A stretch of DNA of 64,000 nucleotides, taken from positions 186,001 to 250,000 of the forward strand of contig CANTFL010001353.1 of NCBI GenBank assembly GCA_947650285.1, written 5' to 3'. Shown here in pieces: positions 14,099 to 22,081 of this stretch. Each line of letters opens with the position of its first letter. Positions within the stretch are counted from its first letter, which is position 1. The stretch is from Hyaloperonospora brassicae (Eukaryota; Oomycota; Peronosporomycetes; Peronosporales; Peronosporaceae). A model generated the notes under the pieces. That model was not told where the DNA came from. It ran no database searches and worked only from the letters and a program-made list of their open reading frames with translations. The position numbers were made by a program, and so were the translations under genes.

Positions 14099-14489
14099 TG
14101 TAACGGGGCACACCCTTGCGTAACTAAACGCAAGGGTTTTGAGTGCCCCGACAGACGTACACGTGGCAAGCGAGGAAGCGTAGGTAGGGTAAAAGTAGAA
14201 CTGTTATATTAATAAATTAAGTCTTTAAACTACTGTCTCTTCGTTTGACTTAATTCAATTATACTAATAAAACTGAGTGTATGGTGACGTCTCGTCACCA
14301 CTCATTGCGCGCGTCTTGCGGCGATTGGTGGGTTGATATCATCACGATATCAACTAATGAACAGACCCTCTGGTCGACCCTTCAATATCACCACTTTGGT
14401 GATATTGTTTTAAAGAATATCCATCTTTATATTCTTTATTGTCACTTTCCTTAAAGTGACAATTTCATGTAACGGGCTGCCCCGTTACA
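14099..14489 (-). repeat. Element B 3' LTR (left copy)
   Basis: 391 bp. On the forward strand it runs TGTAACGGGGCACACC to CCCGTTACA. It contains at least seven hairpins in a row, including CCCTTGCGT/ACGCAAGGG, GTTGATATC/GATATCAAC, CAATATCACCA/TGGTGATATTG and TGTCACTTT/AAAGTGACA. In element orientation it starts with TGTAACGGG-gcag-CCCGTTACA. Confidence 0.95.
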
Positions 14490-14505
14490 TCACCCCCCTT
14501 AACTG
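14490..14505 (-). promoter_or_regulatory. Element B polypurine tract
   Basis: On the reverse strand this reads AAGGGGGGTGA directly before the 3' LTR. It is the purine run that would prime plus-strand synthesis. Confidence 0.6.
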
Positions 14506-14619
14506 ATAGTCACCGTGTGACTATCGAAAACATGGAGGCCACCCGTTGGCCACCATTGGGACAGGGAGCACTTGTTGGGTCCGTTCCATTCACTTTCCGC
14601 TTGACCTCGCATAGTTAAC

Positions 14620-16227
14620 ATGTCTATGCGAGGTGACTCAAGACCCACACAGCCTGGTGCTGTGCAAGCCTTTGCGGCAGACGCTTCGTCGTCTGCCGCC
14701 CCTTCTTCGCCTGCAGCAACAGGTGCTGCAGGTGCACGCGGTATCACACCGCGTGCGCTCGATGACCCTGATGTAGAGGTCATCTACTCTGGCGAGTCAG
14801 ACGTGTCTGACTCGGGCAATGCTCCAGAGGCGTCTCGCTCACCGGCGACGCCTCAGTATTCGCCAAGACCACTGCCGAACGAACGGACTCGTGATTTGCA
14901 TCACAGTCTGCTCGGTAGTGATGACGATGATCAGGGTGGAGAGGCATATTACTCCTTACCACCGCCGGCTCGTGCCTCTTCGCTCGAGCGTGATGACGAT
15001 GGCGTGAGCCGTCGTCAATCTGGGAGCCGTGGTACCAACACAGGTATCACTGTGAAGCCTGATGATCCGAAGCCGTGGCGTTTGTCCGAACGGATCAACA
15101 ATAGCTTGTCTCACGAGACAAGCCAACACCATCGAATACCCTTATTCGATGCGATTAAGCTTCACGGCTTGAGTTCCAGCAGGATGAAATTTCGCGCTGA
15201 ACAAGACTTCTTTCTCGATTTTTTCTTAAGGCATCGATGGTAAAATGCTTACCAAAAGCGTGACAAAGCCTCGCTTTTGGCTGCGTGGAACGCGTTCGTC
15301 CAAAACGTAAAGAATTTTGGACGAGAAGGATGGCTCAAGAAACTTTAGGCGACACGCCTCAGGTTCGAAAGACGAACGCCAACCGGTGCAAGGTACCGGC
15401 TTAATCGTTTGTCAAGTGAGGCAGACCTTCCTTGCCTCACATGGGGAGACCCTTGTGCGAGTTGTGTTGACAACTTGCAGCGTGCACATAGGGACGTGTA
15501 TTCCCTAAGTTAGCCCTGGGGAAGGGCACACATCTCGGCTGAGATGCGTGACGCGATTGCAAACTTGCAATCCGTCTACAAGCGCCTAGAGCGCGTGTTT
15601 ACCGATGGGCCACAGGACTCATCGGATGGGTCTCGTCATACTGGCGGACGAGACCTTCAACATCCATCAACAGCTGAGATCGGGGCTCCCAGCTGTTCCA
15701 AGAGGGTGGATACCCCTGCCACTGGACGAGGTAGCTCGTCCTTGATCCTGAATCGTCACGGTGATTCAAGATACGCTCCACTAGAAAGCGTTGATCACCG
15801 TGGGCATCCACCAAAGGATGTGGTGGAGGAGGAAAGACCTCCTCCAGATGATTCTGTTCACCATCTCGACCCTTACGAGATGGATCGCGCAATCGATGAA
15901 TTGCGCGATGACTTGAAGCACGATCGCGACCGGCGCTACGCTTTGACTGATACCGTGCGGAAGAACCGCAAGGGTCACGAGGCTGATCGGGCGAGGGATC
16001 GCGCCGATTATGCCACGGCGCAGCTTCAGGTCGAGCGGGATGTCTGCTCCCTATTCGGCGAGCTGGCGACAGCTCGCGGGGAGATATCTCGGTTGAATAC
16101 CGAGGTATCATATCTGCGCGACCAGACGGATCGTCTGGAGCGCGAACGCAAGAACTTGATGGATGTTCTTGAACGTGGGGGCTATCTTCATCGGAAGAAG
16201 AAGGCTCGTACTGACAGTACGGCCTGA
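14620..16227 (+). pseudogene. Element B antisense ORF (aORF), coiled-coil protein of unknown function
   Basis: A 536-codon frame on the strand opposite pol, from an ATG at 14620, 130 bp inside the 3' LTR. It has three in-frame stops: TAA 15241-15243, TAG 15346-15348, TAG 15511-15513. Element D codes through the last two positions, so they are recent. The N-terminal 200 residues are Ser/Ala/Pro-rich and acidic (DDPDVEVIYSGESDVSDS). A middle region is rich in Trp/Phe (LAAWNAFVQNVKNFGREGW) and has a Cys cluster (CLTWGDPCASC). Residues about 420-520 form a charged coiled coil, ending in a basic tail (HRKKKAR). It overlaps the sense chromodomain ORF by 629 bp, with each strand's wobble base facing the other's second codon base. 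I do not recognise the protein family. Confidence 0.7.
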
Positions 16228-16309
16228 GCCTCCCCACGTGAAACGTAGGATGCGCACGCATCCTACGTGGCAATTCGAGTGTGTATGCATTGCCCTTGCG
16301 ATGCAACAC
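15599..16309 (-). pseudogene. Element B integrase tail: GPY/F end, linker, chromodomain
   Basis: In this frame the protein begins after the GPF motif, continues with ELPRRMRAHPTFHVGRLRPY (end of the GPY/F module) and a Pro/Ser/Asp-rich linker, and ends in a chromodomain. The chromodomain has the aromatic and acidic positions of the fold (QRFLVERILNHRDDSG, YLVQWQGYPPSWNSWEP; about 15640-15811). Chromodomains of this class target integration to particular histone marks. The frame is shifted relative to the upstream integrase by a frameshift near 16370. The antisense ORF runs through the same DNA. Confidence 0.85.
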
Positions 16310-20593: not shown

Positions 20594-21646
20594 TCACTCA
20601 GTACTATTTGGTACTGGGCGTGGAGCACTACACTCGTATGCGTAGTGCCCTAACTTCTGACAGCGATTGCACTTCAGCAATCGCTTGTTGTTTGTAGAGC
20701 GAGGTCTCTCGCTCTCAACATAGCAGAGGTCCATTGGTTCTGGACCTCCGATCTCTTGTCGTCTCGGTGGACGGTAAGAGTTTGAGCTAGCATGAGCCTG
20801 TCTCATGCTAAAGTCTTCCTGTTCCGCGGCTGATATCGCTTCTTCAAGCGTATTCATCTCTAGGCGGAACAGGTGGCTCCTGACGGGCCCTTCTGCGAGC
20901 CCTTGCATGAACACCGTAATCAACGTGTGTTCATGGACTGGGTTGGCAGTTATACTTCTCGCAAGGAGTCGTATATGTTGTGCGTAAGCGTGCACATCAC
21001 GCTTACCCTGCTTGAGTTTCAGGAGCTCTGAGCGAGCCCTGAACTCAGCACGTGGCGGCTCAAACGTTTGTCTGAGCCGGGACTTGAAGTCATCTAGCGA
21101 CCTAAACACGTTCGGGTAGCTACTCTCGAGTCCCAGGGACCAAGTTTTGGCACGCCCTGCCAAGTGGTTCTGAGCAAATGTGAGTTTCATTTGCTCATCT
21201 TCGACGCGACGAGCCCTTAGGGCTCTGTCGAGTTCGACAAACCGTAGTAACAGGGAGTCCTCCGGGACTCCACTGTACTTGGAGATGTCGACTTTTATGA
21301 CTTCGGGACGACGCGCATGCGCCTTCCCGCCCACAGCAGCATGGAATTGCTGCTGTCTCAACAGCTCCGTCTGTTGAGCACCGAGTTCTCTCAACTGCTC
21401 GGCCTGTTGAGAGCCTTGCTGGTGAAGCAAGGCTACTTTCTCCCTCTCGAGAGCAAGTTCATTCTGAATGAACTTGGCGATAGCGGCATGTTGTTGGTCT
21501 CTGTCTAGAGACTCCAACATGGTGCTGACGACGAGTTCGCCTACGGTAGAACTCATTCGTTCTACCGCACCCCATTCGATGTCACTCAAATAGGTAAATC
21601 CTTCACGCGTGGCGTGAAAGGTCTCTTCTTCATCCAACATGAACAT
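20594..21646 (-). CDS. Element B gag
   Basis: 350 codons from an ATG at 21646-21644. The N-terminus (MFMLDEEETFHATREGF) is followed by a helical Gln-rich segment with heptads (about residues 60-95), a Retrotrans_gag-like capsid region (about 115-260, starting VIKVDISKYSGVPEDS) and the zinc knuckle CNRCQKLGHYAYEC near residue 330. The reading frame is intact to TGA at 20596-20594. Element D has CGA there and reads on into protease, so the present end is probably a nonsense mutation of a gag-pro fusion. The CDS is dense with hairpins, for example CATCCAACATG-aa-CATGTTGGATG at the start codon. Confidence 0.9.
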   Translation of the reverse strand: MFMLDEEETFHATREGFTYLSDIEWGAVERMSSTVGELVVSTMLESLDRDQQHAAIAKFIQNELALEREKVALLHQQGSQQAEQLRELGAQQTELLRQQQFHAAVGGKAHARRPEVIKVDISKYSGVPEDSLLLRFVELDRALRARRVEDEQMKLTFAQNHLAGRAKTWSLGLESSYPNVFRSLDDFKSRLRQTFEPPRAEFRARSELLKLKQGKRDVHAYAQHIRLLARSITANPVHEHTLITVFMQGLAEGPVRSHLFRLEMNTLEEAISAAEQEDFSMRQAHASSNSYRPPRRQEIGGPEPMDLCYVESERPRSTNNKRLLKCNRCQKLGHYAYECSAPRPVPNSTE

Positions 21647-21679
21647 GTTGGATGATGTGGTCCTTGGAAGGACTACAAA

Positions 21680-21688
21680 GTGCTACCA
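21680..21688 (-). promoter_or_regulatory. Element B primer-binding site
   Basis: On the reverse strand this reads TGGTAGCAC, two bases inside the 5' LTR (21691-22081). Same core as in A, C and D. Confidence 0.6.
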
Positions 21689-21690
21689 GG

Positions 21691-22081
21691 TGTAACGGGG
21701 CACACCCTTGCGTAACTTAACGCAAGGGTTTTGAGTGCCCCGACAGACGTACACGTGGCAAGCGAGGAAGCGTAGGTAGGGTAAAAGTAGAACTGTTATA
21801 TTAATAAATTAAGTCTTTAAACTACTGTCTCTTCGTTTGACTTAATTCAATTATACTAATAAAACTGAGTGTATGGTGACGTCTCGTCACCACTCATTGC
21901 GCGCGTCTTGCGGCGATTGGTGGGTTGATATCATCACGATATCAACCAATGAACAGACCCTCTGGTCGACCCTTCAATATCACCACTTTGGTGATATTGT
22001 TTTAAAGAATATCCATCTTTATATTCTTCATTGTCACTTTCCTTAAAGTGACAATTTCATGTAACGGGCTGCCCCGTTACA
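21691..22081 (-). repeat. Element B 5' LTR (right copy)
   Basis: 391 bp, about 3 differences from the left copy (near positions 17, 248 and 330 of the LTR). It ends against ATCTG at 22082-22086. Confidence 0.95.

Follow-up and report, generated by a model that had tools for sequence, protein, structure and literature searches.

A Ty3/Gypsy retrotransposon clade of Hyaloperonospora brassicae with dense arrays of short perfect hairpins, possibly kept by selection for local folding of both strands

Dense arrays of short, perfect hairpins are a trait of one clade of Ty3/Gypsy retrotransposons, made up of the family of element B (dozens of copies) and of related families with smaller hairpins. Element B lies in the window, the whole stretch of 64,000 nucleotides of Hyaloperonospora brassicae DNA analysed here. 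With some hesitation, we favour the reading that the array is kept by selection in the transposition cycle because it would let both RNA strands fold locally and, by prediction, withstand silencing.

Anatomy of element B

Element B is a full-length element that maps to positions 14099–22081 on the minus strand, within element A, as read from its LTR ends and flanks. A 5-bp target duplication, ATCTG, is found at 14094–14098 and 22082–22086. The two LTRs, defined by repeat search and by reading of their ends, occupy positions 21691–22081 on the 5' side of gag-pol and 14099–14489 on its 3' side (both minus strand); they have the termini TGTAACGGGG...CCCGTTACA and are identical at 389 of 392 aligned positions. 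Specifically, the minus strand carries gag (20594–21682; Retrotrans_gag, E 9.4e-16, with a zinc knuckle slightly below the cut-off), an aspartic protease frame (19215–20549; RVP_2, E 9e-9), reverse transcriptase with RNase H (17598–19214; RVT_1, E 2.3e-26; RT_RNaseH, E 6.7e-34) and an integrase frame (16578–17597; Integrase_H2C2, E 5.1e-20; rve, E 2e-7, slightly below the cut-off). The LTR pair, the target duplication and this Gypsy order of the genes identify element B as a Ty3/Gypsy LTR retrotransposon.

In addition, an antisense ORF lies on the plus strand (14605–15243; 207 aa from the ATG, 212 from stop to stop), starting about 115 nt inward of the 3' LTR, and a relative in H. brassicae is 70% identical. 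Phytophthora, Peronospora, Hyaloperonospora, Globisporangium and Aphanomyces have relatives of the reverse transcriptase or of this ORF. The conservation of this ORF next to the 3' LTR implies that the antisense strand is transcribed, so that both RNA strands of element B are presumably present in the cell. The initial annotation had described coding as retained under the hairpins, and all five frames are indeed present; its orientation had to be corrected, as gag-pol of element B lies on the minus strand.

Hairpin density in element B and in the coding frames

Hairpins were counted as non-overlapping, perfect inverted repeats with arms of at least 8 bp and loops of at most 15 nt, and each region was compared with 20 dinucleotide shuffles. 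Element B holds 97 such hairpins against a mean of 1.9 (maximum 3) in the dinucleotide-preserving shuffles, some 50 times the chance level. For the coding parts, 50 codon-preserving (synonymous) shuffles per part were used at the same arm length. Again all parts exceed the null: gag with 13 hairpins against 0.4, protease with 21 against 0.4, RT-RNaseH with 19 against 0.6, integrase with 9 against 0.2 and the antisense ORF with 8 against 0.3. The non-coding parts of element B are no richer in hairpins than the coding ones. Stems with one mismatch are also in excess, with 31 in element B and 40 in element D against about 3 in shuffles.

A density well above that of random sequence had been proposed from the initial inspection and is borne out by these counts against both kinds of shuffle; the 11 hairpins then listed all proved perfect at their coordinates (11/11), some with longer arms than listed, such as the 12 bp of the hairpin at 21630–21655. 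Dinucleotide, synonymous and codon-order shuffles rule out chance or base composition as the source of the array.

Distribution within the window and the clade

By the same count, element D (37113–45112, minus strand), an older copy of the family of B with LTRs identical at 355 of 393 positions, holds 71 hairpins against 1.15 in dinucleotide shuffles. Element A, a degraded relative of B, shows a mild excess only, its halves holding 6 and 8 hairpins against 0.75 and 0.9. Element C (29277–36760, plus strand), with a reverse transcriptase about 48–50% identical to that of B, has an excess of small hairpins (154 against 90 at arm 5, 58 against 23 at arm 6) and none at arms of at least 8 bp (2 against 1.4). 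The remaining regions gave 2 hairpins against 0.7 (25332–29276), 3 against 2.8 (1–9400) and 4 against 4.05 (45113–64000). Equal density in element A or in host genes, which would have spoken against a peculiarity of element B, was not found: neither the host sequence of the window nor the elements from outside the clade show the excess at arms of at least 8 bp.

Each of the eight surveyed loci outside the clade (8/8) has 0 or 1 hairpin of this arm length, with two of them, L078 and L082, mildly high at arms of at least 6 bp (13 against 8.3 ± 2.1 and 13 against 6.4 ± 3.0). Since these loci are so poor in hairpins and the window outside the clade is close to chance, a host-wide process is unlikely. 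Hairpin size differs by family within the clade, and no conservation of hairpin positions between families was seen. A search of viral contigs for relatives found no stretch matching the six peptide patterns.

Geometry and sequence of the hairpins

With arms of at least 6 bp, 163 hairpins cover 45% of the 7984 bases of element B. The proposed spacing of one hairpin every 25–35 nt was therefore too dense; moreover, even tiling was not seen in element B, hairpins with arms of at least 7 bp being slightly clustered (gap CV 1.19 against 0.99 ± 0.09). Clear examples are those at 16243–16268 (12-bp arms, 2-nt loop), 20336–20360 (12-bp arms, 1-nt loop) and 21630–21655 (12-bp arms, 2-nt loop). An arm range of 5–12 bp had been given; its upper limit stands for element B, where the longest arm is 12 bp, and has to be raised to 14 bp for other copies. 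Likewise, loops are mostly short, as claimed from the outset for 1–10 nt, except that 8 of the 105 hairpins found in element B when loops of up to 60 nt are allowed have loops of 22–51 nt. At arms of at least 8 bp and loops of at most 15 nt, hairpins of element B never span more than 31 nt. Arm and loop length are anticorrelated (rho -0.40, p 4e-5), which limits the span. In L071 and C, the span is mostly about 13–16 nt.

Palindromes bound by protein without folding are an unlikely explanation, as loop sizes mostly peak at 3–6 nt and the zero-loop cases resemble inner extension. No common loop motif was seen, the commonest 4- or 5-nt loop in element B, GTGAT, occurring 3 times. On the sense strand, loops of element B are A-rich and C-poor compared with spacers (p 7e-4, in a sample that counts L013 and L062, one genomic copy, separately). 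This bias is absent in C and L070 and appears as a trend in L069 and L071. We regard it as a weak hint of sense-RNA structure and count it against folding of both strands.

Fit of the hairpins to the encoded proteins

In gag-pol, 16 of 81 hairpins with arms of at least 7 bp are in register 3-3, so that pairing of third positions is depleted; the antisense ORF, read in its own frame, shows no such depletion (5/9). The arms sit in protein columns that are more variable than the rest (entropy 1.30 against 1.02, p 0.004). Where an arm does fall on a highly conserved residue (46 columns), the commonest residue is kept in 97.8% of cases. Residue changes imposed by hairpins at conserved sites were not seen: in matching the commonest residue, arm columns resemble non-arm columns of equal variability.

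Stem variation during and after transposition

The comparison covered 66 distinct copies, L013 being left out as the same genomic copy as L062. Shared variants at third codon positions occur at 55 of 482 positions in stems and at 118 of 565 outside (p 4e-5), whereas single-copy variants are equal in the two compartments (206/482 and 245/565); the interaction is significant (p 0.002). With shared stem variants halved and singletons equal, stems appear to be maintained during transposition and to decay after insertion, and we infer that the deficit of shared synonymous variants reflects selection and not biased copying. In the L071 family (8 copies), the signal was not repeated (33/310 against 48/490).

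These data bear on a mutational origin, in which the reverse transcriptase or host replication would switch template in the folded nascent strand, one arm being copied from the other and imperfect palindromes ratcheting to perfect ones, with any benefit secondary. That template switching makes and repairs hairpins is published (PMC8794818; PMC8604942, in the sections drawn on here). Such an origin would fit the strict Watson–Crick pairing, the strand symmetry described below, the limited span and real loops, and the variable positions between families. It would also fit the hairpin at 17623–17645, whose 5-nt loop (17632–17636) is exactly inverted in copy L056. This is the one clean inversion, beside one of 3 nt in L087, among 496 variant loops from 117 stem definitions that overlap one another; for the whole piece, matches by reversal only (20 places) outnumber inversions (6 places). 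In addition, new hairpins of L069 lean to change on one arm (T 0.91 against 0.59 ± 0.21, p 0.07).

Several observations run against this origin. After insertion, stems are lost no more slowly than expected under neutrality, which argues against a host DNA process, and non-coding parts are no richer than coding ones. If arms were copied from arms, about half of the approximately 46 third-position variants missing from stems should reappear as shared compensated pairs. Compensated pairs do exceed the wrong-partner control (21 against 4.9, maximum 9 in 20 runs), an example being the change at 17742/17763 in copy L051 (hairpin 17741–17764), but only 1 compensated state is common to at least 3 copies, with 5 in two copies and 19 in one. 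Of the compensated pairs, 20 are transitions and 1 is a transversion, whereas the ratio among single changes is 471:345; this bias is partly expected by chance, as 3.95 of the 4.9 control doubles are transitions too. Furthermore, new hairpins of L070 (0.64 against 0.60), L071 (0.86 against 0.78) and L091 (0.47 against 0.90) differ from their sisters on both arms, like controls, and rewriting of one arm from the other was not found in any of the four family comparisons (lowest p 0.07). The quasipalindrome correction suggested in the initial annotation is weakened accordingly, as shared stem mutations are removed and not copied. All considered, we hold a mutational origin to be unlikely, though a serious contender. 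Net stem gain in the young lineage was not found either, 703 of 736 pairs being unchanged, 4 gained, 3 lost and 26 unclear (L013 and L062 both counted).

Folding of both strands

Folding of element B was assayed in 79 windows of 100 nt, as the excess over sequence-matched shuffles in kcal/mol per 100 nt. On sense and antisense strands, respectively, the excess is -11.07 and -11.06 in B, -9.39 and -9.28 in D, -12.68 and -13.06 in L062, -4.09 and -3.57 in L069, -3.17 and -3.14 in L070, -3.54 and -3.49 in L071 and -2.42 and -2.38 in C. Relative to shuffles it amounts to 44% in B and 50% in L062. Similarly, 13.8% of 25-nt pieces on the sense strand of B and 13.6% on the antisense strand fold at -8 kcal/mol or better, against 1.8% when shuffled.

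Genome-scale structure confined to the sense RNA, serving packaging, stability or reverse transcription, would account for the very large excess on the sense strand, for the protection of stems in the transposing lineage and for the A-rich loops of B, with their trend in L069 and L071. This proposal, already made in the initial annotation, is weakened by the strand symmetry, the antisense excess equalling the sense excess in 7/7 clade elements folded. Nor is G-U favoured over A-C on the sense strand, stem states common to at least 3 copies including 11 sense against 19 antisense G-U, and base pairs next to the stems of B and D are not clearly asymmetric between strands. Shaping of the sense strand, by G-U use or by a sense excess above the antisense one, was thus not seen in the clade of B, and we consider this proposal improbable.

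Selection on DNA, in which hairpins of the single-stranded cDNA or cruciforms formed once it is double-stranded would aid integration or protect the cDNA, is compatible with the strand symmetry and with protection confined to the transposition stage. Single-stranded minus-strand cDNA, however, should likewise accept G-T pairs on just one strand, and no clear sign of this is seen. Cruciforms are usually more stable with longer arms, and those observed here stop at 12–14 bp. We judge selection on DNA quite improbable.

Selection for local folding of both RNA strands, our tentatively preferred reading, possibly provides a shield against pairing with antisense transcripts and small RNAs. Sense and antisense RNA of element B would each fold locally and are predicted to be poor pairing partners for antisense transcripts and small interfering RNAs; the hairpins would form fast, fit within a small-RNA-sized stretch and remain too short to be good Dicer substrates. 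Strict Watson–Crick pairs would be needed, since any G-U pair of one strand corresponds to an A-C mismatch in its complement. The benefit may then be escape from silencing. In its fullest form, that the clade rewrote its whole genome into short perfect hairpins through synonymous and tolerant sites, as armour against sense–antisense pairing and 25-nt small-RNA silencing with a size set per family, the idea is rather doubtful. The span of about 13–16 nt in L071 and C is a mismatch with small-RNA size.

Arms of 12–14 bp, the longest reached, are short for dicing. We consider a small-RNA source or decoy, also suggested in the initial annotation, very improbable. According to the sections cited from PMC3804510, inverted- and tandem-repeat loci of P. 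infestans are potent small-RNA sources and yield the most small RNA per base, which would favour a source or decoy and is the opposite of a shield. The same source reports that Phytophthora 25–26-nt small RNAs derive mainly from transposable elements, which we count for the shield.

Overall, the interpretation in the initial annotation is partly supported. Beyond it go the clade-wide nature of the trait, the family-specific hairpin size and the signature of selection during transposition.

Comparison with known systems

If the proposed selection is real, a mobile element can be shaped over its full length for local self-complementarity while its proteins are kept. If the mutational origin holds instead, a reverse transcriptase writes palindromes, which would be equally important for the origins of hairpins. 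As a single genome contains families with dense, weak and no hairpin arrays, the selective reading would make it possible to test there whether pervasive genome structure gives protection from silencing.

In some RNA viruses with genome-scale ordered RNA structure (GORS), the entire genome folds more strongly than expected, and the positions of the structures are not fixed. Element B resembles it in both respects, but its excess consists of perfect short stems, is strand-symmetric and belongs to an LTR retrotransposon. The oomycete Ty3/Gypsy elements of PMC5348765 are like B in host group and element type, and a word search of the main text of that paper found no mention of hairpins, palindromes, inverted repeats or antisense. 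Template-switch mutations, as described in portions of PMC8794818 and PMC8604942, predict perfect Watson–Crick stems, as in B, and loop inversions, of which there is one clean case. They also predict one-arm rewriting and base changes like those of single mutations, which were looked for and not found.

The closest precedent is provided by the coding palindromes of nematomorph mitochondria, on the evidence of the sections cited from PMC6649704. As in Nematomorpha, perfect inverted repeats occur in conserved coding sequence and avoid register 3-3, and positions are gained or lost between species, with some concerted arm change. In that case, however, arms reach 284 bp in mitochondrial DNA, with no excess of imperfect repeats, whereas the arms described here stop at 12–14 bp and are combined with dense repeats along an 8-kb retrotransposon, an excess of imperfect stems and third-position data pointing to selection in the transposing lineage.

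Hairpin arrays in element B and its surroundings

Element B (14099-22081, minus strand) is a Ty3/Gypsy retrotransposon whose frames encode gag, protease, RT-RNaseH and integrase. A 5-bp target duplication marks its insertion into element A, and its LTRs are identical at 389/392 positions. The initial annotation had described B as a chain of short perfect hairpins, and all 11 of the examples listed there proved to be perfect. By counting non-overlapping perfect hairpins with arms of at least 8 bp and loops of at most 15 nt, which is our main definition, B contains 97, compared to 1.9 in shuffled sequence. 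Under the same definition, element D (37113-45112, minus strand; LTRs 355/393), an older copy of the same family, contains 71, compared to 1.15, and the counts for 1-9400 and for 45113-64000 of the window match chance expectation. With arms of at least 6 bp, B contains 163 hairpins (24.9 in shuffles), covering 45% of the element. The excess also held against synonymous shuffles in each coding part of B (arm at least 8), where 8 to 21 hairpins were observed and the shuffles gave at most 2 or 3. At arms of at least 7 bp, gag, protease, RT and integrase hold 11.8-18.7 hairpins per kb; the two LTRs reach 12.8 and 17.9, and two stretches of non-coding sequence 8.7 and 11.3.

Element A (about 9436-14093 and 22087-25331) is a degraded relative, with RT pieces 36-67% identical; it shows a mild hairpin excess, with several hairpins inside its LTRs. 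At 5611-6100 there is an 8-bp tandem repeat array (40 overlapping 153-nt registers reported), which overlaps a 196-aa ORF at 5520-6110.

B also carries an antisense ORF (14605-15243, plus strand) starting just inside the 3' LTR, whose counterpart in D (37647-38270, plus strand) adjoins the 3' LTR. The ORF is open in both elements, old copy D included, with 86.5% identity and a dN/dS of 0.62. Its product has no Pfam domain; 37 relatives were found, one of them in Hyaloperonospora brassicae (70% identical). B has a second long plus-strand ORF (15514-16227, 237 aa between stops), overlapping frames of the minus strand that lie downstream of integrase. The sequence TGGTAGCA at 21681-21690 (minus strand), adjoining the 5' LTR, is by its resemblance a candidate tRNA primer-binding site. 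Among the 120 of 2411 matches listed for the B RT, many of them unnamed, the named relatives are oomycete proteins, from Peronospora matthiolae (77%) and also Phytophthora, Globisporangium and Aphanomyces, which makes an oomycete host probable.

Distribution and geometry of the hairpins

The genome (100.6 Mb, 898 contigs) was searched for copies. The 68 loci retrieved with probes from B or via the RNase H family (some overlap, and two represent the copy in the window itself) all match B (68/68) and hold 20 to 49 hairpins (arm at least 8) per about 3.3 kb. A further 25 loci were picked from family matches, 17 inside the RT clade of B and 8 outside. The latter (L072, L076, L077, L078, L079, L081, L082 and L092) have 0 or 1 hairpin at arm at least 8, L078 and L082 being mildly high at arm at least 6. 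Within the clade, eight loci are B-like (11 to 37 hairpins) and five, with 8 to 16 hairpins, resemble L069 or L070, their RT sharing about 54-61% identity with that of B. The remaining four (L071, L080, L090 and L091, the L071-like loci; RT 62% identical to B) have none at arm at least 8, but 14 to 27 at arm at least 6, compared to 7.0 +/- 3.3 in L071 shuffles; their arms are only 5-6 bp, in strong excess, with loops mostly of 0-6 nt and arm length stopping sharply at 6-7 bp. Element C (29277-36760, plus strand), whose RT is about 48-50% identical to B, likewise has small hairpins (154 vs 90 at arm 5; 58 vs 23 at arm 6). Each family therefore has its own hairpin size, with spans of about 20-31 nt for B, about 20 for L069 and about 13-16 for L071 and C. 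Shared hairpin positions are no commoner than chance between families, except for L069 and L070, where they exceed it.

Loop length mostly peaks at 3-6 nt. In B no hairpin of the main definition spans more than 31 nt, and arm length falls as the loop lengthens (rho -0.40, p 4e-5), whereas selection for stability regardless of size would produce the reverse trend. In 7/7 clade elements folded, the sense and antisense strands show an equal predicted RNA folding excess, and mismatches within or beside the stems of B and D are A-C about as frequently as G-T. The sense-strand loops of B are A-rich and C-poor (p 7e-4), a bias not repeated in C and L070.

Coding constraint on the arms

In the gag-pol hairpins of B the third-with-third position register is avoided (16/81), and therefore third-position freedom is exploited; in the antisense ORF hairpins it is not avoided (5/9). 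Between families, residue identity is mostly lower in arms than outside (53% and 65% for B vs L069), with the reverse direction in L070 vs L069, where arms are not the less alike. Against the 120 RT relatives listed, B arms sit in more variable columns (entropy 1.30 vs 1.02, p 0.004), and where columns are highly conserved, the commonest residue is present in B at 97.8% of 46 arm positions and, equally often, at 98.3% of 173 elsewhere. These data agree with the earlier proposal that coding is kept while synonymous and tolerant positions are bent to folding, and the arrays are built via such sites.

Selection or copying of the stems

At third codon positions of the B family, variants common to at least 3 copies occur at 55/482 stem vs 118/565 other sites (p 4e-5), whereas single-copy variants do not differ (206 stem and 245 other; interaction p 0.002). 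Therefore, the stems are protected during transposition and not after insertion. Inserted copies thus decay neutrally, which is hard to square with a host DNA process shaping the stems. A comparison of old with young copies found 703 of 736 stem pairs the same, with 4 gains, 3 losses and 26 unclear cases.

The initial annotation had also raised quasipalindrome correction by template switching, in which copying of one arm from the other would remove shared stem mutations. One copy, L056, shows a clean footprint of such an event at the positions homologous to window 17632-17636, where a 5-nt loop is exactly inverted, and another copy has an exact inversion of a 3-nt loop, so that template switching seems to occur at these stems, but rarely. 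By our arithmetic, copying predicts that about half of the missing stem variants, about 23, should return as compensated pairs, and only one common to at least 3 copies was seen. The compensated pairs of the B family are transitions on both sides in 20 cases and not in 1 (single changes 471 to 345), although control doubles are likewise 81% transitions. In four comparisons, the new hairpins of a family usually differed from its sister in both arms, which also argues against copying, while the L069 comparison leans towards it (p 0.07). For the L071 family, sampled at 8 copies, stems are not depleted of shared third-position variants (33/310 vs 48/490), which counts against selection.

A possible role and known systems

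Strand-symmetric selection in the transposition cycle would require an agent acting on both strands. Some retroviruses have antisense genes and, by analogy, the antisense ORF would imply an antisense transcript; local hairpins on both strands would then compete against sense-antisense annealing and against small-RNA binding. Of the 25-nt pieces of B, 13.8% on the sense and 13.6% on the antisense strand fold strongly (shuffled 1.8%). Transposable elements are described as the main source of 25-26-nt small RNAs in Phytophthora (PMC3804510). The hairpins of B are about equal to this length and may hinder small-RNA binding; in L071 and C the hairpins are small, and their spans do not match it.

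Among the literature matches listed, mainly open-access journal papers, no report of hairpin arrays of this kind in LTR retrotransposons was found. The nearest known case is that of the coding palindromes of nematomorph mitochondria, for which the authors suggest repeat conversion as a possibility (PMC6649704). The B arrays differ from those palindromes in the size limit, in the excess of imperfect stems and in the third-position evidence found here.
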